Shown piece by piece: positions 33,295-59,003 of a stretch of 64,000 nt of DNA. The stretch spans positions 62,001 to 126,000 of the forward strand of contig CAMYJD010000006.1 in the NCBI GenBank assembly GCA_947258655.1, read 5' to 3'. The stretch is from an uncultured Gammaproteobacteria bacterium (GTDB taxonomy: Bacteria; Pseudomonadota; Gammaproteobacteria; JAADHQ01). The notes under the pieces are model-generated. The model had not been told where the DNA came from. It was given only the letters and a program-made list of their open reading frames with translations, and searched no databases. The position numbers were made by a program, and so were the translations under genes. Each line of letters starts with the position of its first letter. The first letter of the stretch is position 1.

Positions 33295-33320
33295 CTTCAT
33301 TCTCCTTAATTAAAAGTTGA

Positions 33321-33402
33321 ATGAGCGCCGTTGATCCAGTTTAGGGGATCTGCCCGCTCCCGAGCCTGACGGATTGTACCGCTGCAGCGCCCCTCGGGAG
33401 TG
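33321..33402 (-). promoter_or_regulatory. SAH riboswitch upstream of ahcY
   Basis: Read on the minus strand, CTCCCGAG and CTCGGGAG form a perfect eight-base P1 stem around the conserved GGGGCGCTGCAGCGG and GTCAGG segments. The distal ACGGCGCTC (33331-33323) can form the pseudoknot with the GGGCGC part. These are the hallmark parts of the SAH (ahcY-motif) riboswitch known from proteobacteria. It lies 27 bases from the ahcY start. SAH binding is expected to switch ahcY on. Confidence 0.9.
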
Positions 33403-51436: not shown

Positions 51437-51486
51437 AAAAAAAAGGCCCAGTCATGCATCTCCGCAAAGACATGCATGATTGGACC
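51437..51486 (-). terminator. Attenuator terminator in the nrtA leader
   Basis: On the minus strand GGTCCAATCATGCAT and ATGCATGACTGGGCC pair over fifteen positions (one mismatch, one G-U) around a 12-base loop and are followed by eight T. It lies between the promoter and nrtA, 40 bases from the start codon, so it should stop transcription unless antitermination occurs. Confidence 0.88.
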
Positions 51487-51522
51487 TCGTTATCCTGTGT
51501 CAGCGAGACCGCCGTTGGCCTC
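51482..51522 (-). promoter_or_regulatory. ANTAR (NasT) RNA target in the nrtA leader
   Basis: Two hairpins on the minus strand. P1 is GAGGCC-AACGGC-GGTCTC (51522-51505); P2 is GGAT-AACGAG-GTCC (51495-51482). Each loop is a hexamer with A at position 1 and G at position 4, the pattern recognised by ANTAR antiterminators. The right arm of P2 overlaps the left arm of the terminator by five bases, so P2 and the terminator cannot form together. Confidence 0.85.
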
Positions 51523-51566
51523 ATGTATATAGTACCCGGAGGTAGTATATTGCTGCTTGCTTATAT

Positions 51567-51582
51567 TGCAGTAATTATGCCA
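51567..51582 (-). promoter_or_regulatory. Sigma-54 promoter of nrtA
   Basis: On the minus strand TGGCAT-AATTAC-TGCA has GG and GC separated by exactly ten bases, as required for -24/-12 elements. The predicted start is near 51556, giving a leader of about 160 bases that contains P1, P2 and the terminator. Confidence 0.8.
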
Positions 51583-51685
51583 GATATGGCCTGTGATTTA
51601 TCTTGTTGTTTTGTATTAATATATAGAAATGTGCGCGATATTGTCGTGGCGCTGATGTCAATATATTGCACAATAATAGGGCTGC

Positions 51686-51702
51686 TGCACCTCAATAGTG
51701 CA
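51686..51702. promoter_or_regulatory. NtrC-like binding site upstream of nrtA
   Basis: TGCAC-CTCAATA-GTGCA matches the NtrC consensus TGCAC-N7-GTGCA perfectly. Its centre is about 138 bases upstream of the predicted nrtA transcription start. It touches the nasT 3' end region. Confidence 0.78.
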
Positions 51703-51709
51703 ATGGATT

Positions 51710-52294
51710 TCAGGAAAGCAGGTCAAATGTGGCGATAATCCCTTCGGCGATTTCCGCAATGCGTTTGTTCTTGTCCATGGCCATTTTACGCAATGCCTGG
51801 TAGGCCTCGTCCTCTGAATATTGCTTGTGCTGCATCAGTAAGCCCTTGGCCTTGTCGATGACCTTGCGTTCTTCGAGTTGTGTGCGCGTCTTGACCAGGT
51901 CCAGTTTAAGCTTCTGCACCTCGGCAAAACGCGTTACCGCTACCTGTAATATAGACTTGATCCGCTGGGCCTCAAGCGTGCCGACGATATAGGTTGCAAC
52001 ACCGTTCTTGATGGCTTGCTCTATGATCTCGTCTTCATTGGACCCGGTAAACAGTATGACCGGCACCGAAAAGCCCTGGTTGATGCTCCTGATTTGTTGC
52101 AACAGGCTACCGTCCAGTTGCTCGACTTCGATAATAATGGCATCAGGTACGTTGTTGTCTAGATGGGCATGAATATCCTGGTCGTTGGTCATGGTCTCTA
52201 TCTTGTCGACACCGATACTCGTCAATGTTGCCTTGAGTTCATCCGCAGGATCAACTTCCTGCAAAACGAGCAAAATTTCTTTAATTCCAGTCAT
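51710..52294 (-). CDS. nasT: NasT-type nitrate response antiterminator (ANTAR)
   Basis: A 194-residue protein with an N-terminal receiver-like domain and a C-terminal ANTAR domain (IDKAKGLLMQHKQYSEDEAY near residue 148, with IAEIAEGIIATFDLL at the end). The position of the receiver Asp reads IIIEVEQLD, so phosphorylation is unlikely, as in other NasT proteins. NasT binds leader RNA to prevent termination; two candidate targets lie nearby. The usual partner NasS, a nitrate-sensing NrtA relative, is not in the window. The frame extends to 52522, but the Met at 52294 fits the family and lies after a sigma-54 promoter. Confidence 0.9.
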   Translation of the reverse strand: MTGIKEILLVLQEVDPADELKATLTSIGVDKIETMTNDQDIHAHLDNNVPDAIIIEVEQLDGSLLQQIRSINQGFSVPVILFTGSNEDEIIEQAIKNGVATYIVGTLEAQRIKSILQVAVTRFAEVQKLKLDLVKTRTQLEERKVIDKAKGLLMQHKQYSEDEAYQALRKMAMDKNKRIAEIAEGIIATFDLLS

Positions 52295-53896: not shown

Positions 53897-53913
53897 TGCA
53901 CAACGATTGTGCA
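53897..53913. promoter_or_regulatory. NtrC-like site upstream of the nitrogen-oxide operon
   Basis: TGCAC-AACGATT-GTGCA is a perfect TGCAC-N7-GTGCA palindrome. The overlapping GTGCATTATGCAC (53889-53901) extends the symmetry. The centre is about 87 bases before the predicted transcription start. Confidence 0.8.
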
Positions 53914-53965
53914 GCTTGAGGTCTCTAATCTATAGCGGTCCTGCTAAAACATTGATTTATCGGTC

Positions 53966-53981
53966 TGGCATGAAACATGCT
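53966..53981 (+). promoter_or_regulatory. Sigma-54 promoter of the nitrogen-oxide operon
   Basis: TGGCAT-GAAACA-TGCT has GG and GC ten bases apart. The predicted start is near 53992, so the RNA would begin right at the first hairpin of the leader. Confidence 0.8.
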
Positions 53982-53990
53982 AAATGTTAC

Positions 53991-54059
53991 CCGTGACCAA
54001 AGGCGGTCACGGTAATTTTAAAACTTCGGGACATTGATCCCGATCGAGGCAAAGGCGCC
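53991..54059 (+). promoter_or_regulatory. ANTAR (NasT) RNA target in the operon leader
   Basis: P1 is CCGTGACC-AAAGGC-GGTCACGG (53991-54012), an eight-base stem with hexaloop AAAGGC. P2 is GGC-AAAGGC-GCC (54048-54059) with the same loop. Both loops have A at position 1 and G at position 4. A third stem, TCGGGA-CATTGA-TCCCGA (54026-54043), lies between them. The right arm of P2 overlaps the left arm of the terminator at 54056. Confidence 0.83.
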
Positions 54060-54101
54060 CATTGTGAGTCAATTTATTGGTTCATGAGAGGGCGTTTTTT
54101 T
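54056..54101 (+). terminator. Attenuator terminator in the operon leader
   Basis: CGCCC (54056-54060) pairs with GGGCG (54090-54094) and is followed by seven T; inner TCAA/TTGG pairing can extend the stem. It lies 15 bases before the start codon of the flavoprotein gene and overlaps P2 of the ANTAR target. Confidence 0.75.
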
Positions 54102-54115
54102 ATGAGTACAGGTAC

Positions 54116-56098
54116 ATGACTGCCGAAGTATTGAAGCAAGAGCAACAGTATGCACGCAAGTCCTTCGATATTATCGTCGTTGGCATGGGCCCTGTCGGGC
54201 TGCATTTTCTCCAGAAACTGATGGGTATGGATGCCGCGCTCGGTATCGCGGTCTTCGGTGACGAGCCGTGGCAACCCTACAACCGGGTAAAACTGTCTTC
54301 ATTGTTATCAGGAGATATCAGGGAAGAATCCTTATACGAAGCCAATGCGATTCTGGATAATGCGTCCGTATATCCTTTTTATAATAACCGGATTGTATCA
54401 ATCGATCGTTATGCCCATGAGGTCGTAGACAGTCAGGGCCAGAGATATGCATATGGCAAGCTTGTGCTGGCGACAGGTTCGAGTGCGCATATACCGGTTA
54501 TAGAGGGTGTGCAGCTGAACAATGTATTCCGCTTCCGTGACCTTCATGACGTAATGTCGCTGATGGGTAGAAGCGTGATGACGCGTACAACCGTCGTTAT
54601 CGGCGGCGGCCTGCTCGGCCTGGAAGCAGCCAGGTCCATGCAGCGTTTCAATACCGATGTGCATGTCGTTGAACACGATATGTGGTTGATGTTCAAACAA
54701 CTGGATGACACAGCGGGCGCTTGTTTGCAGGAGCATATAGAGACTACCGGGATCAAGGTGCATACCAGTCAGCATGTTAAGAAAATCATCGGTGACGACA
54801 GAGTGACGGGTGTACAACTGGCAAATAATGAGACCATCGAATGCGATACGGTCATCCTTGCTACAGGTATTGTAGCCAATGTGCAACTGGCACTCGACTC
54901 TGGTTTGCACATCGGTAAAGGCATAAGGGTAAACGATAATCTGCAAACCAATGACAATGATATCTATGCTATTGGTGAATGCGCAGAGCACGATGAAAAG
55001 GTGTATGGCCTGGTCGGGCCTGGCTATGAGCAGGCTGCGGTTCTGGCGCATCATATTGAAGGCAGGAAGAGTGTTTATAAGGGTTCTGTCTCTGCGGCAA
55101 AATTGAAGGTGGTAGGCTTGCCGGTATTTAGCGCCGGGGAAGTCGAGCAGGGGGAGAGCCATGTTGATAAGTATGTCTATCAGGATCAAGAGAAAAATAT
55201 TTATCGTAAGCTTATTGTCAGAAACGGGCGTCTTCGAGGTGTCGTAGGTGTAGGCGAATGGCCTGGCATACATCGGTTTCAGGAAGCAATTGCGAAAAAG
55301 CGCCGCGTGTGGCCATGGCAGTCGGGCAGATTTATCGATGAAGGCATTATGTGGAATGATGTGCTGGCGGAAAATGTTATCGACTGGCCGGCATCTGCGA
55401 CGGTATGCAACTGCACCGGTGTAACACGTGGGCAGCTGGATCTGGCGCAAAGTAAAGGGGCAACGACAGTAGCGCAAATCGCGACGATGACATGTGCATC
55501 TACCGTTTGCGGTTCCTGTAAAAACCTGATTGGCGATTATCTTGGTAGCAGTGCTGCGCCAGAACCGGTAAAGGGCTTCCGGATGCTGTTTATAGCCTCG
55601 TTGCTAGCAACGCTCGCTGCATTGTTGTTTTTTCTGTTTCCTGTTGTCGACTATACGAGCACCTCGCAGGCAGGCTGGTCCATTGATATGTTGTGGCGGG
55701 ACAGCTTTTTCAAGCAGGTGAGCGGATTTACGGTACTCGGCGTCGCCGCCTTTATCTCCGTCATCTCAATCCGTAAGCGGGTGCAGAAGCTTTTCAAGTT
55801 ATGGGAATTTACTTCCTGGCGGATCGTGCATGTCGTGCTCGGTCTGTTGGTGCTGGGTATTCTGTTTTTACATACCGGTTTTCGTATGGGCAATAATCTC
55901 AATTTTGCCTTGATGTTGACATTCAGCAGCTTGTTGCTGGTGGGCGCAATTGCGGGTGTCGCGATTGCCTATGAGCACAGCTTGCCGAGAAGGCTGGCAA
56001 AACATGTACGTTCAATCGCTCTGTGGTCGCATATCATTTTATTATGGCCGCTGCCGGCCTTGTTGGGCTTTCATATTCTGAAAACGTATTACTTTTAA
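54116..56098 (+). CDS. NirB-like FAD/[2Fe-2S] flavoprotein fused to a bis-heme cytochrome b
   Basis: A 660-residue protein. Residues 15-400 resemble the flavin half of NAD(P)H nitrite reductase: FAD motif VGMGPVGLHF near 21, NAD(P) motif IGGGLLGLEAA near 161, and YAIGECAEHDE near 285. A BFD-like [2Fe-2S] site follows (CNCTGVTRGQL near 430, CASTVCGSC near 461). Instead of the siroheme domain there are five membrane helices from about 487. The third carries His572 and His586 and the fifth His639 and His653, each pair 14 apart, as expected for two stacked b hemes. I chose the ATG at 54116 because it lies after the leader terminator. It should carry electrons from cytoplasmic NAD(P)H across the membrane. 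The stop overlaps the next start (TAATG). Confidence 0.85.
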   Translation: MTAEVLKQEQQYARKSFDIIVVGMGPVGLHFLQKLMGMDAALGIAVFGDEPWQPYNRVKLSSLLSGDIREESLYEANAILDNASVYPFYNNRIVSIDRYAHEVVDSQGQRYAYGKLVLATGSSAHIPVIEGVQLNNVFRFRDLHDVMSLMGRSVMTRTTVVIGGGLLGLEAARSMQRFNTDVHVVEHDMWLMFKQLDDTAGACLQEHIETTGIKVHTSQHVKKIIGDDRVTGVQLANNETIECDTVILATGIVANVQLALDSGLHIGKGIRVNDNLQTNDNDIYAIGECAEHDEKVYGLVGPGYEQAAVLAHHIEGRKSVYKGSVSAAKLKVVGLPVFSAGEVEQGESHVDKYVYQDQEKNIYRKLIVRNGRLRGVVGVGEWPGIHRFQEAIAKKRRVWPWQSGRFIDEGIMWNDVLAENVIDWPASATVCNCTGVTRGQLDLAQSKGATTVAQIATMTCASTVCGSCKNLIGDYLGSSAAPEPVKGFRMLFIASLLATLAALLFFLFPVVDYTSTSQAGWSIDMLWRDSFFKQVSGFTVLGVAAFISVISIRKRVQKLFKLWEFTSWRIVHVVLGLLVLGILFLHTGFRMGNNLNFALMLTFSSLLLVGAIAGVAIAYEHSLPRRLAKHVRSIALWSHIILLWPLPALLGFHILKTYYF

Positions 56099-57489
56099 TG
56101 AAGCATTCAAAACTCTGGCTGCTATGGCTGACAATAATCGTGATATCAGGCGCATATTTAACATACCTGCTTATTGATGGTGAGGATAAAACCATGTTCA
56201 TGCCCGGTGCCATGACAGGTGGGCATCATCAGATAGGTGTTGCCTGTGAAGCCTGTCATACGGATTCATTCACGGATAAGGAAGATATGCAGAAGGCATG
56301 TGAAAGCTGTCATGGCGAGCAGCGCAAGAAACCGTTTGATTCGCATCCGCGCGCGAAATTTACCGATCCTCGTAATGCGGACCGGTTGGAAAATATTGAT
56401 GCGTTGCATTGCATCACCTGCCACGTCGAACACAAACCGGAAATAACGCAAAAGACCGGCCTGACACAGCCTGTCGATTTTTGTGTGCATTGTCATCAGG
56501 ATATAGCCGAAGAGCGCCCGAGCCATGCGGGTATGGGCTTCGAGACCTGTGCCAGTGCGGGTTGTCACAACTTTCATAATAATCGTGCCCTGTATACAGA
56601 CTTCCTGGTCAAGCATATGCATGAAGCGGATATGCTCGACAAACAGAAAATGCCGGCACGGGAATTTGCCAGTGTGCTTGAAGATATCGCGACCTATCCG
56701 CATGACCGTTATCCGGTTGGCAAGCTGGAAGTGAAAGATATGGATGCCCCTGAAGGCATGCAGGTCGCGGATGATATTGTGCATGACTGGGTCACGACGG
56801 CACATGCCGGTTCGGGTGTAAATTGTACTGCCTGTCATATGGTCAGCGGGGAAGATGATAAAAAGGTATGGGATGACCACCCCGATCATCGTGCCTGTCA
56901 GACATGTCATGATATTGAAGTGAACCAGTTTATGCAGGGCAAGCATGGCATGCGTCTGAAGTCAGGTCTTTCGCCGATGACGCCCGCTCAGGCCCGCTTG
57001 CCGATGAAGGCAGATTCACATGATACAGAACTGACCTGTAATACATGTCACCAGACACACGCCTACAAACTCGAGACTGCAGCGGTTGAGGCATGCCTCG
57101 GTTGTCATGATGACAAGCATAGCATAGCTTATAAGAATTCCTCGCATTATGAACTCTGGCAAAAGGAAAGCAAAGGTGAATTGCCTGAAGGCAGTGGCGT
57201 TTCGTGTGCCACCTGCCATATGCCGCGCACATCCATCGATGTCAGTGACTGGTTGCGACGCGTGGTCGTGCAACATAACCAGAACGCGACGCTTGTGCCG
57301 AACGAGAAGATGATTCGACCGGTCTGTCTGAACTGTCACGGCCTTGGCTTCTCGATTGATGCGCTCGCAGATGAAGACCTGGTGCAGCGTAATTTCAAGG
57401 GCAAGCCATCCAAACATATTAACAGTATCGATATGGCGGAACAGGATAATAAAAGGCATTTGGAGGAAACCGGAGGTGAAACATTCTAG
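56098..57489 (+). CDS. Membrane-anchored eleven-heme cytochrome c
   Basis: A 463-residue protein with an N-terminal signal anchor (residues about 5-25, LWLLWLTIIVISGAYLTYLL) and then a periplasmic part. Ten CxxCH sites are seen (CEACH at 50, CESCH, CITCH, CVHCH, CTACH, CQTCH, CNTCH, CLGCH, CATCH and CLNCH near 410) plus one CASAGCH at 151 with four residues between the cysteines. I do not recognise the exact family; octaheme hydroxylamine oxidoreductase-like and other multiheme nitrite reductases are the nearest ideas. The start overlaps the stop of the flavocytochrome b gene, so the two proteins are probably made together as one electron path. Confidence 0.83.
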   Translation: MKHSKLWLLWLTIIVISGAYLTYLLIDGEDKTMFMPGAMTGGHHQIGVACEACHTDSFTDKEDMQKACESCHGEQRKKPFDSHPRAKFTDPRNADRLENIDALHCITCHVEHKPEITQKTGLTQPVDFCVHCHQDIAEERPSHAGMGFETCASAGCHNFHNNRALYTDFLVKHMHEADMLDKQKMPAREFASVLEDIATYPHDRYPVGKLEVKDMDAPEGMQVADDIVHDWVTTAHAGSGVNCTACHMVSGEDDKKVWDDHPDHRACQTCHDIEVNQFMQGKHGMRLKSGLSPMTPAQARLPMKADSHDTELTCNTCHQTHAYKLETAAVEACLGCHDDKHSIAYKNSSHYELWQKESKGELPEGSGVSCATCHMPRTSIDVSDWLRRVVVQHNQNATLVPNEKMIRPVCLNCHGLGFSIDALADEDLVQRNFKGKPSKHINSIDMAEQDNKRHLEETGGETF

Positions 57490-57561: not shown

Positions 57562-58152
57562 ATGAACAAAACCAAACTGGCAGTAAGCATGGGCACGGCA
57601 ATCGCGATAGCCTCTGCGACGACAACACTAAATGCAGCAGGTGACATGGTGCCGGTCAAGGCCATGGCGGATGCATTGCATCTGGTAATGGACTCTGACC
57701 GTACAATCTATACACGCAAGATTGTCAATCGTCTGGTCAAGAAAGACAAGGTCATCAAGGCCAGTGAGCATTTTGAAGATGACAAGGCGCTGGTACTACC
57801 CGCACAAATGTTCCGCTTCGGCGCCGAGCTTGTACAAAAGCGCTCGGAAAAATTACCGGATGTGAATTTCAGTTATTCACTACAGTCGCTGTGGCCGGTG
57901 AACAGGCAAAATGCACCGAAAACCAAGGCCGAAAAAGACGGCCTGAAGTTTGTCGCGGAAAACAAGGGTAAAAACTACTACACCGAGGAAACACTCGGCG
58001 GCAAGAAGTATTTTACTGCCGTTTATGCCGATACTGGTGTAGCGCCCGTCTGTGTGTCCTGTCATAACAAGCACAAGGACTCCCCGAAGCGTGACTTCAA
58101 GCTGGGCGATGTCATGGGTGGTGTGGTTATCCGTATACCGATTGACGGATAA
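57562..58152 (+). CDS. DUF3365 (Tll0287-like) heme protein
   Basis: A 196-residue exported protein with a signal peptide ending near residue 26 (ATTTLNAAG) and a C-terminal heme motif APVCVSCHNKH near residue 163. The PAS-like DUF3365 fold is suggested by GKKYFTAVYAD and the ending GDVMGGVVIRIPI. Relatives are heme-binding sensors or electron carriers of unclear function. It lies 72 bases after the multiheme gene and 14 before the cytochrome c gene, within the same operon. Confidence 0.82.
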   Translation: MNKTKLAVSMGTAIAIASATTTLNAAGDMVPVKAMADALHLVMDSDRTIYTRKIVNRLVKKDKVIKASEHFEDDKALVLPAQMFRFGAELVQKRSEKLPDVNFSYSLQSLWPVNRQNAPKTKAEKDGLKFVAENKGKNYYTEETLGGKKYFTAVYADTGVAPVCVSCHNKHKDSPKRDFKLGDVMGGVVIRIPIDG

Positions 58153-58166
58153 TCGGGCATAATGTC

Positions 58167-58556
58167 ATGCGTTTGCCTGCCATAATATTATTTCCGGTGA
58201 TGCTCAGTTGTTGCCTGTCTGCAGTGGCGGATAATGCTGCATATATACACTTCGATGGAGACGCGCTCGCGAGCGGGCGTACGCTGTGGCTGGAAAACTG
58301 CGAGGGATGTCATGGTTATGGTGTGGCAGGCGCGCCAATACCGATGCAGGCAGATGAATGGAAGCAACGGGTGACAAAAGATAGGCAGGTATTATATGGC
58401 CATGCTATCAACGGGTTTTTCGGACCTGACGACACCATGATGCCGGAAAGGGGGGGTAATCCAGAGCTCAGTGACGAGCAGGTCAAACGGGCAGTGGATT
58501 ACATGGTCGAGCTGGCGACATATTATATCAGGCAACAATCGAATCAATCTAAATGA
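58167..58556 (+). CDS. Small class I cytochrome c
   Basis: A 129-residue periplasmic protein. A signal peptide covers about residues 1-21 (ending LSAVA), the heme site is CEGCHGYG near residue 45 and the probable axial Met is in DTMMPERGG near 93. It resembles c5/c-555 type mono-heme carriers and could shuttle electrons to or from the eleven-heme protein. It is in the same operon, 14 bases after the DUF3365 gene. Confidence 0.85.
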   Translation: MRLPAIILFPVMLSCCLSAVADNAAYIHFDGDALASGRTLWLENCEGCHGYGVAGAPIPMQADEWKQRVTKDRQVLYGHAINGFFGPDDTMMPERGGNPELSDEQVKRAVDYMVELATYYIRQQSNQSK

Positions 58557-58589: not shown

Positions 58590-59003
58590 ATGACTCCGGA
58601 ACAAGTGAAACTGGTAAAAGATTCATGGGCCAAGGTGGCCCCGATCGCGGATACCGCCGCGGAACTGTTTTATGGCAAGCTGTTTGAACTGGATCCATCG
58701 GTCAAGCCGATGTTCAAGGGCGATATGACCGAACAGGGCAGGAAGTTGATGGCGATGCTGAACACAGCGGTCAATTCACTCGATAATGTCGAGGCCATAG
58801 TGCCGGCAATTCAGGCCATGGGTAAACGTCATGTCGGCTATGGTGTCAAGGATGAACATTATGATACGGTCGGCGAGGCGCTGATCTGGACCCTGGGTGC
58901 AGGTCTCAAAGACGACTTTACCGATGACACCAAGGAGGCCTGGGTTGCGGTATATACACTGGTATCGACGACCATGAAGGACGCGGCCTCTGAGGCTGCC
59001 TGA
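58590..59003 (+). CDS. Single-domain bacterial haemoglobin
   Basis: A 137-residue globin of the Vitreoscilla type. The N-terminal A helix is MTPEQVKLVKDSWAKVAPIA; the probable proximal His lies in MGKRHVGYGVKDEHY near residue 75-85; FKGDMTEQGRKLM near 45-57 is in the distal region. No reductase domain is present, so it would need a partner to act as NO dioxygenase. As the last gene of the operon it may protect against NO formed during nitrite reduction (inference). A terminator follows. Confidence 0.93.
   Translation: MTPEQVKLVKDSWAKVAPIADTAAELFYGKLFELDPSVKPMFKGDMTEQGRKLMAMLNTAVNSLDNVEAIVPAIQAMGKRHVGYGVKDEHYDTVGEALIWTLGAGLKDDFTDDTKEAWVAVYTLVSTTMKDAASEAA

Follow-up and report, generated by a model that had tools for sequence, protein, structure and literature searches.

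The operon for an uncharacterised 11-haem cytochrome in the DNA analysed here (the window, a contiguous stretch of 64,000 nucleotides) is preceded by what, judged from its sequence, is very probably a two-step switch, in which NtrC and sigma-54 polymerase initiate transcription and NasT then acts by antitermination. This is the best reading given the anatomy of the region, the covariation of its hairpins, a genome that encodes ntrBC and rpoN, and the tendency of such leaders to occur together with ANTAR genes. An earlier note on this DNA had proposed two-level control, and the same evidence upholds that proposal as far as NtrC/sigma-54 followed by an ANTAR protein. The elements before ORF1, the first gene of the operon, are:

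53897-53913, no strand assigned: NtrC-type enhancer palindrome TGCACAACGATTGTGCA, an exact match to TGCAC-N7-GTGCA
53966-53981, plus strand: sigma-54 promoter (-24/-12) TGGCATGAAACATGCT, GG-N10-GC
53991-54012, plus strand: ANTAR hairpin P1, CCGTGACC-AAAGGC-GGTCACGG, with an 8-bp stem
54026-54043, plus strand: spacer hairpin between P1 and P2, from RNA folding
54048-54059, plus strand: ANTAR hairpin P2 (antiterminator), GGC-AAAGGC-GCC, with a stem of only 3 bp
54051-54101, plus strand: intrinsic terminator, its T-run ending at 54101
54102-54119, plus strand: candidate mini-ORF of 5 codons, MSTGT, from sequence

The palindrome, the -24/-12 element, P1, P2 and the terminator all lie where the earlier note had placed them. 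The two ANTAR hairpins display identical AAAGGC loops, as it had observed, with A1 and G4 at 53999 and 54002 in P1 and at 54051 and 54054 in P2; both stems reach at least 3 bp and close with a C:G pair. The terminator overlaps P2, again as described there: its 5' arm, from 54051 onward, consists of the loop and 3' stem of P2, making the two structures mutually exclusive. The palindrome is centred ~87 bp upstream of the predicted RNA start, and TGGCATGAAACATGCT departs from TGGCAY-N5-TTGCW at one position. Taking +1 as the 12th base past the -12 C, we predict a start at 53992, the second base of the P1 stem, so that the note's placement at the first base of P1 holds to within one base.

The terminator form of this leader (-42.0 kcal/mol) is favoured over the P2 form (-30.7 kcal/mol) by ~11 kcal/mol, and that of a second leader, before nrtABC, by ~8 kcal/mol, consistent with a switch that is off by default. 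The spacer hairpin, whose loop lacks the A1/G4 signature, has an analogue, from sequence, in the leader of the sister genome G003. The mini-ORF begins directly after the terminator T-run, and ends in a stop that overlaps the start codon of ORF1; in G003 a mini-ORF of 3 codons (ATG GGT TTT TAA) immediately precedes the ORF1 start. Translational coupling of the mini-ORF to ORF1 is possible.

The second leader belongs to a further complete NtrC/sigma-54/ANTAR-leader module (51437-51702, minus strand), absent from the earlier note, which lies ~2.3 kb from the ORF1 module and adjoins nasT:

51710-52294, minus strand: nasT, encoding a pseudo-receiver and ANTAR protein, the only ANTAR gene in the genome
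51686-51702, no strand assigned: NtrC palindrome, perfect, at ~-138 from the predicted start
51567-51582, minus strand: sigma-54 promoter TGGCATAATTACTGCA, by motif match
51505-51522, minus strand: P1, GAGGCC-AACGGC-GGTCTC
51482-51495, minus strand: P2, GGAT-AACGAG-GTCC
51437-51488, minus strand: terminator, overlapping P2
47964-51397, minus strand: nrtABC-type nitrate ABC transporter operon, the target of this module

We then asked how often such an arrangement arises by chance. A composite of a sigma-54 site, an A1/G4 hexaloop on a stem of at least 6 bp, another on a stem of at least 3 bp and a T-run occurs at only two places on both strands of the 64-kb window and in none of 100 dinucleotide shuffles; the RNA fold of the ORF1 leader has a z of -5.0. 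The -24/-12 element alone is not significant (71 matches when 2 mismatches are allowed, with 84 expected), and its weight comes from its position and conservation.

Comparison across genomes bears on whether the leader might instead be an ordinary terminator with coincidental hairpins, no ANTAR target at all, leaving sigma-54 as the sole regulator. The 3-bp P2 and the one-mismatch sigma-54 site are weak points, the former lending this alternative some weight, as does the genome's own siroheme-type nirB (L147, G000:C45), which has a perfect sigma-54 site, TGGCATACTGCTTGCT, and no ANTAR leader. Against it, A1 and G4 of P1 and A1, A2 and G4 of P2 are invariant in an alignment of 24 leaders. In these, P1+P2 cells are 99.5% paired with a covariation of 0.547 (0.232 when shuffled), and P1+terminator cells 96.7% paired with a covariation of 0.580 (0.261 when shuffled), the paired percentages being biased upward because many leaders were chosen by hexaloop or homology search. 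Shifting the pairing partners by 1-3 columns abolishes the signal in both pairing and covariation. The P2 positions are paired in 24 of 24 leaders, and terminator pairing is conserved as well. Together with the tight genome-level link to ANTAR genes described below, these results make coincidental hairpins highly improbable.

The earlier note had suggested a covariance search as a check, and one run with our own model (R1, built from the 24 leaders) bore the assignment out: at E ≤ 0.01 these two leaders were its only matches, whether in the window or genome-wide, and since both are among its seeds, the informative part is the absence of other matches. Across 369 gammaproteobacterial genomes searched at E ≤ 1e-5, ANTAR genes are present in 50 of the 52 non-seed genomes with a match, compared with 50 of the 304 without a match (P ~3e-30, uncorrected for kinship). 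Where leader and ANTAR gene share a contig, 57 of 60 pairs lie within 5 kb. This genome-level test is free of the leader-selection bias and is the independent part of the evidence. The leader before ORF1 has what marks an ANTAR target, namely two A1/G4 hexaloops, a P2 that excludes the terminator and an ANTAR protein encoded in the same genome.

The operon itself follows the same pattern, ANTAR genes occurring in 20 of the 23 genomes that have it and in 93 of the 346 that do not (P ~1e-8). Within the genus, nasT, the operon and the transporter are all present in G000 and G003 and all absent from G001 and G002. Cultured Marinobacter sp. F4216 (L261) carries this operon and leader too. Against the main reading, four genomes with the operon and an ANTAR gene (G159, G269, G257 and G352) gave no clear leader before ORF1 in a heuristic scan. 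A plasmid search with the leader sequence returned no match.

The promoter step can be examined at 39 loci where a leader directly precedes ORF1. Scored at no more than 1 mismatch within ~120 nt of the leader, a sigma-54 site is found at 27 of the 29 loci without nasT directly upstream, versus only 2 of the 10 with it (none in the other 8). The attenuator thus either follows a sigma-54 promoter of its own or forms part of a transcript that begins with nasT. The region before ORF1 has the parts of an NtrC/sigma-54 promoter: GG-N10-GC, an upstream TGCAC-N7-GTGCA and, elsewhere in the genome, glnA-ntrB-ntrC and one RpoN. We also considered a leader shared with the genome's nirB and two other nitrate-type ABC operons, and rejected it; these have sigma-54-like sites and no ANTAR hairpins.

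Promoter and attenuator could both be real and yet respond to something other than nitrogen limitation, if another enhancer-binding protein, or repression, acts at the palindrome. The perfect TGCAC-N7-GTGCA is expected ~0.0003 times per 300 bp and ~3.3 times per genome from base composition; the genome holds 9, versus 0 for a reversed control pattern. Two of these, L010 in an apparent coding region and L008 at an iscR-like start, are places where NtrC is unlikely to act, and with ~3.3 expected, some of the nine, such as these, are probably chance or other sites. The sister genome has CGCACCATGCACGTGCA, with 1 mismatch, ahead of its leader, and in other relatives the perfect site is often missing. 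Still, both window modules carry one perfect palindrome at a plausible enhancer distance (~-87 and ~-138), another lies upstream of ntrB, and ntrBC and rpoN are encoded in the genome, so we regard a different activator or signal as quite unlikely.

Under the preferred reading, NtrC/sigma-54 initiation followed by NasT antitermination, phosphorylated NtrC would bind the palindrome during nitrogen limitation and activate sigma-54 polymerase at -24/-12, a step proposed because the motifs are there and the genome encodes ntrBC and rpoN. The transcript is predicted to begin at, or one base inside, P1. Unaided, the RNA would fold into the terminator, sequestering P2, and transcription would halt before ORF1. 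An active NasT ANTAR dimer would grip P1 and P2 through their A1/G4 loops, so that P2 keeps the terminator from forming and polymerase reads on into the operon; the conserved anatomy and the known ANTAR mechanism (PMC3369931, PMC3369936, PMC7496416) are the grounds for this step. The nrtABC module would be served by this NasT as well.

The protein encoded by nasT resembles the NasS-NasT systems of Paracoccus denitrificans, Bradyrhizobium and Azotobacter (PMC3795266, PMC5424462, PMC4724949) in length and in joining a receiver domain to an ANTAR domain, and nitrate uptake is among the targets in each case. The sensor known to relay nitrate to NasT in those systems is NasS (PMC3795266). Here, by contrast, nasT has no sensor gene as its partner, and cytoplasmic NasS was not found in the genome (an assembly 98.7% complete): the best NasS matches, at 32-35%, are both of the secreted NrtA type, compared with 53-73% in positive-control genomes that have NasS. 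The phosphorylation position of the receiver is Glu, and Lys, Cys or Asp in homologues. The earlier note's claim that nitrate/nitrite acts through NasT is therefore only an analogy, by which nitrate or nitrite would be a likely activator; because no NasS was found and the receiver is degenerate, sensing of either by NasT is no more than plausible.

The failure to find NasS raises the prospect that NasT, having lost its partner, is constitutively active, so that the leader is always read through and NtrC is the sole regulator. A nasS mutant of B. japonicum indeed shows NasT-dependent expression without nitrate (PMC4724949). However, two leaders have been kept in two genus members with their loops intact, their alternative folds and their strong terminators, features for which constitutive read-through would leave no purpose, and we consider this outcome unlikely. 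We tentatively entertain another possibility, that NasT works without NasS, on a different input, and governs an NADH-to-periplasm haem pathway; candidate inputs include, for example, the nitrate transporter or the redox or NO state of the 11-haem cytochrome system. If so, the input of this ANTAR switch differs from the known nitrate sensor.

The genes placed under this control are, as annotated by the sources given:

54116-56098, plus strand: ORF1, NirB-like FAD/NAD(P)H oxidoreductase with Fer2_BFD and a C-terminal membrane domain (Pfam/NCBIfam)
56098-57489, plus strand: ORF2, membrane-anchored multihaem cytochrome c with 10 CXXCH motifs and 1 CX4CH
57562-58152, plus strand: ORF3, Tll0287-like (DUF3365) c-haem protein (Pfam)
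58167-58556, plus strand: ORF4, small cytochrome c (Pfam)
58590-59003, plus strand: ORF5, single-domain globin (Pfam)

We rejected a classical nas operon as the target; it is a conserved operon of NirB-like flavoprotein, 11-haem cytochrome and globin, often accompanied by nasT and nrtABC. Full-length ORF1 homologues are found in 23 of the 369 genomes. All nine ORF2 homologues aligned keep the 10 CXXCH motifs and the one CX4CH, and the family occurs in hundreds of genomes beside a NirB-like membrane flavoprotein. Its relatives in the GTDB species-level set amount to 456 confirmed stretches, mostly from Proteobacteria, with some Poribacteria and Verrucomicrobia-type records. No specific family model covers the 11-haem cytochrome; ORF2 gives weak profile matches, with limited similarity, to NrfA and octahaem nitrite reductases, and these do not establish its activity. 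Because an AlphaFold2 model of the cytochrome has a mean pLDDT of 45, we can only infer its enzymology. The operon may encode a pathway in which NADH drives a periplasmic haem protein whose substrate is nitrite or NO.

The layout is already known from nitrate-assimilation genes elsewhere and follows the logic of Klebsiella nasF. In Klebsiella nas, Ntr control is known to act together with ANTAR antitermination (PMC5424462, PMC3369936). Predictions of ANTAR targets ahead of nitrogen genes in many bacteria date from 2012 (PMC3369931), and among the predictions of a 2025 sigma-54 survey are 66 promoters of ANTAR-family genes (PMC12316311), so the arrangement here is not new in kind. The Klebsiella oxytoca nasF leader (PMC5424462, PMC3369936) likewise couples an Ntr/sigma-54 start to a P1/P2 ANTAR attenuator whose hexaloops carry A1/G4 and whose terminator overlaps P2. 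It differs in that NasR senses nitrate through its own NIT domain, whereas NasT here is a pseudo-receiver protein, and in that the target here is not nasFEDCBA. EutV and AmiR target leaders (PMC3369931) share the dual hairpin, the A1/G4 loops and the P2 overlapping the terminator, but serve other signals and other genes. A parallel in content is B. japonicum, where NasT controls a globin/flavoprotein operon together with nitrate assimilation (PMC4724949). What sets the present case apart is that the switch guards an uncharacterised 11-haem cytochrome operon and that no NasS gene was found, which makes this a clear example of a NasT lacking any recognisable NasS. The case also links a widespread multihaem cytochrome operon with control by nitrogen limitation and by an ANTAR protein, a clue to the operon's role.

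The comparison extends to the Rfam narK RNA (RF03032), on which nothing relevant turned up in the papers searched. Its consensus runs from a -24/-12 element through a hairpin with an AACGGC loop to an ACGAC-AAAGAC-GUCGC element; Rfam's structure marks P1 only, and the family is listed without a clan. Read from this consensus, RF03032 is a sigma-54 promoter with an ANTAR P1/P2 leader and terminator, which makes the mechanism of the narK RNA directly testable. All 17 high-scoring RF03032 loci inspected match model R1 (seven are R1 seeds), and all 16 genomes above the RF03032 cut-off encode an ANTAR protein. Weak RF03032 matches (E ~0.1-1) are mostly chance-like and were left out of the evidence. 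The ORF1 leader scores 21.7 bits, under the 43.2-bit gathering cut-off, and so falls outside the family as defined, which counts against the main reading; an Rfam scan at the gathering threshold detected neither window leader. A SAH riboswitch (RF01057, 60.1 bits) lies at 33316-33401 of the window, minus strand. RF03032 matches (L079-L094, L107) stand before narK, nasS, nrtA and nirB-type genes. In other gammaproteobacterial genomes, nasS-like genes lie behind narK-type leaders at L107 and L095, which suggests that NasT may control its own sensor gene.
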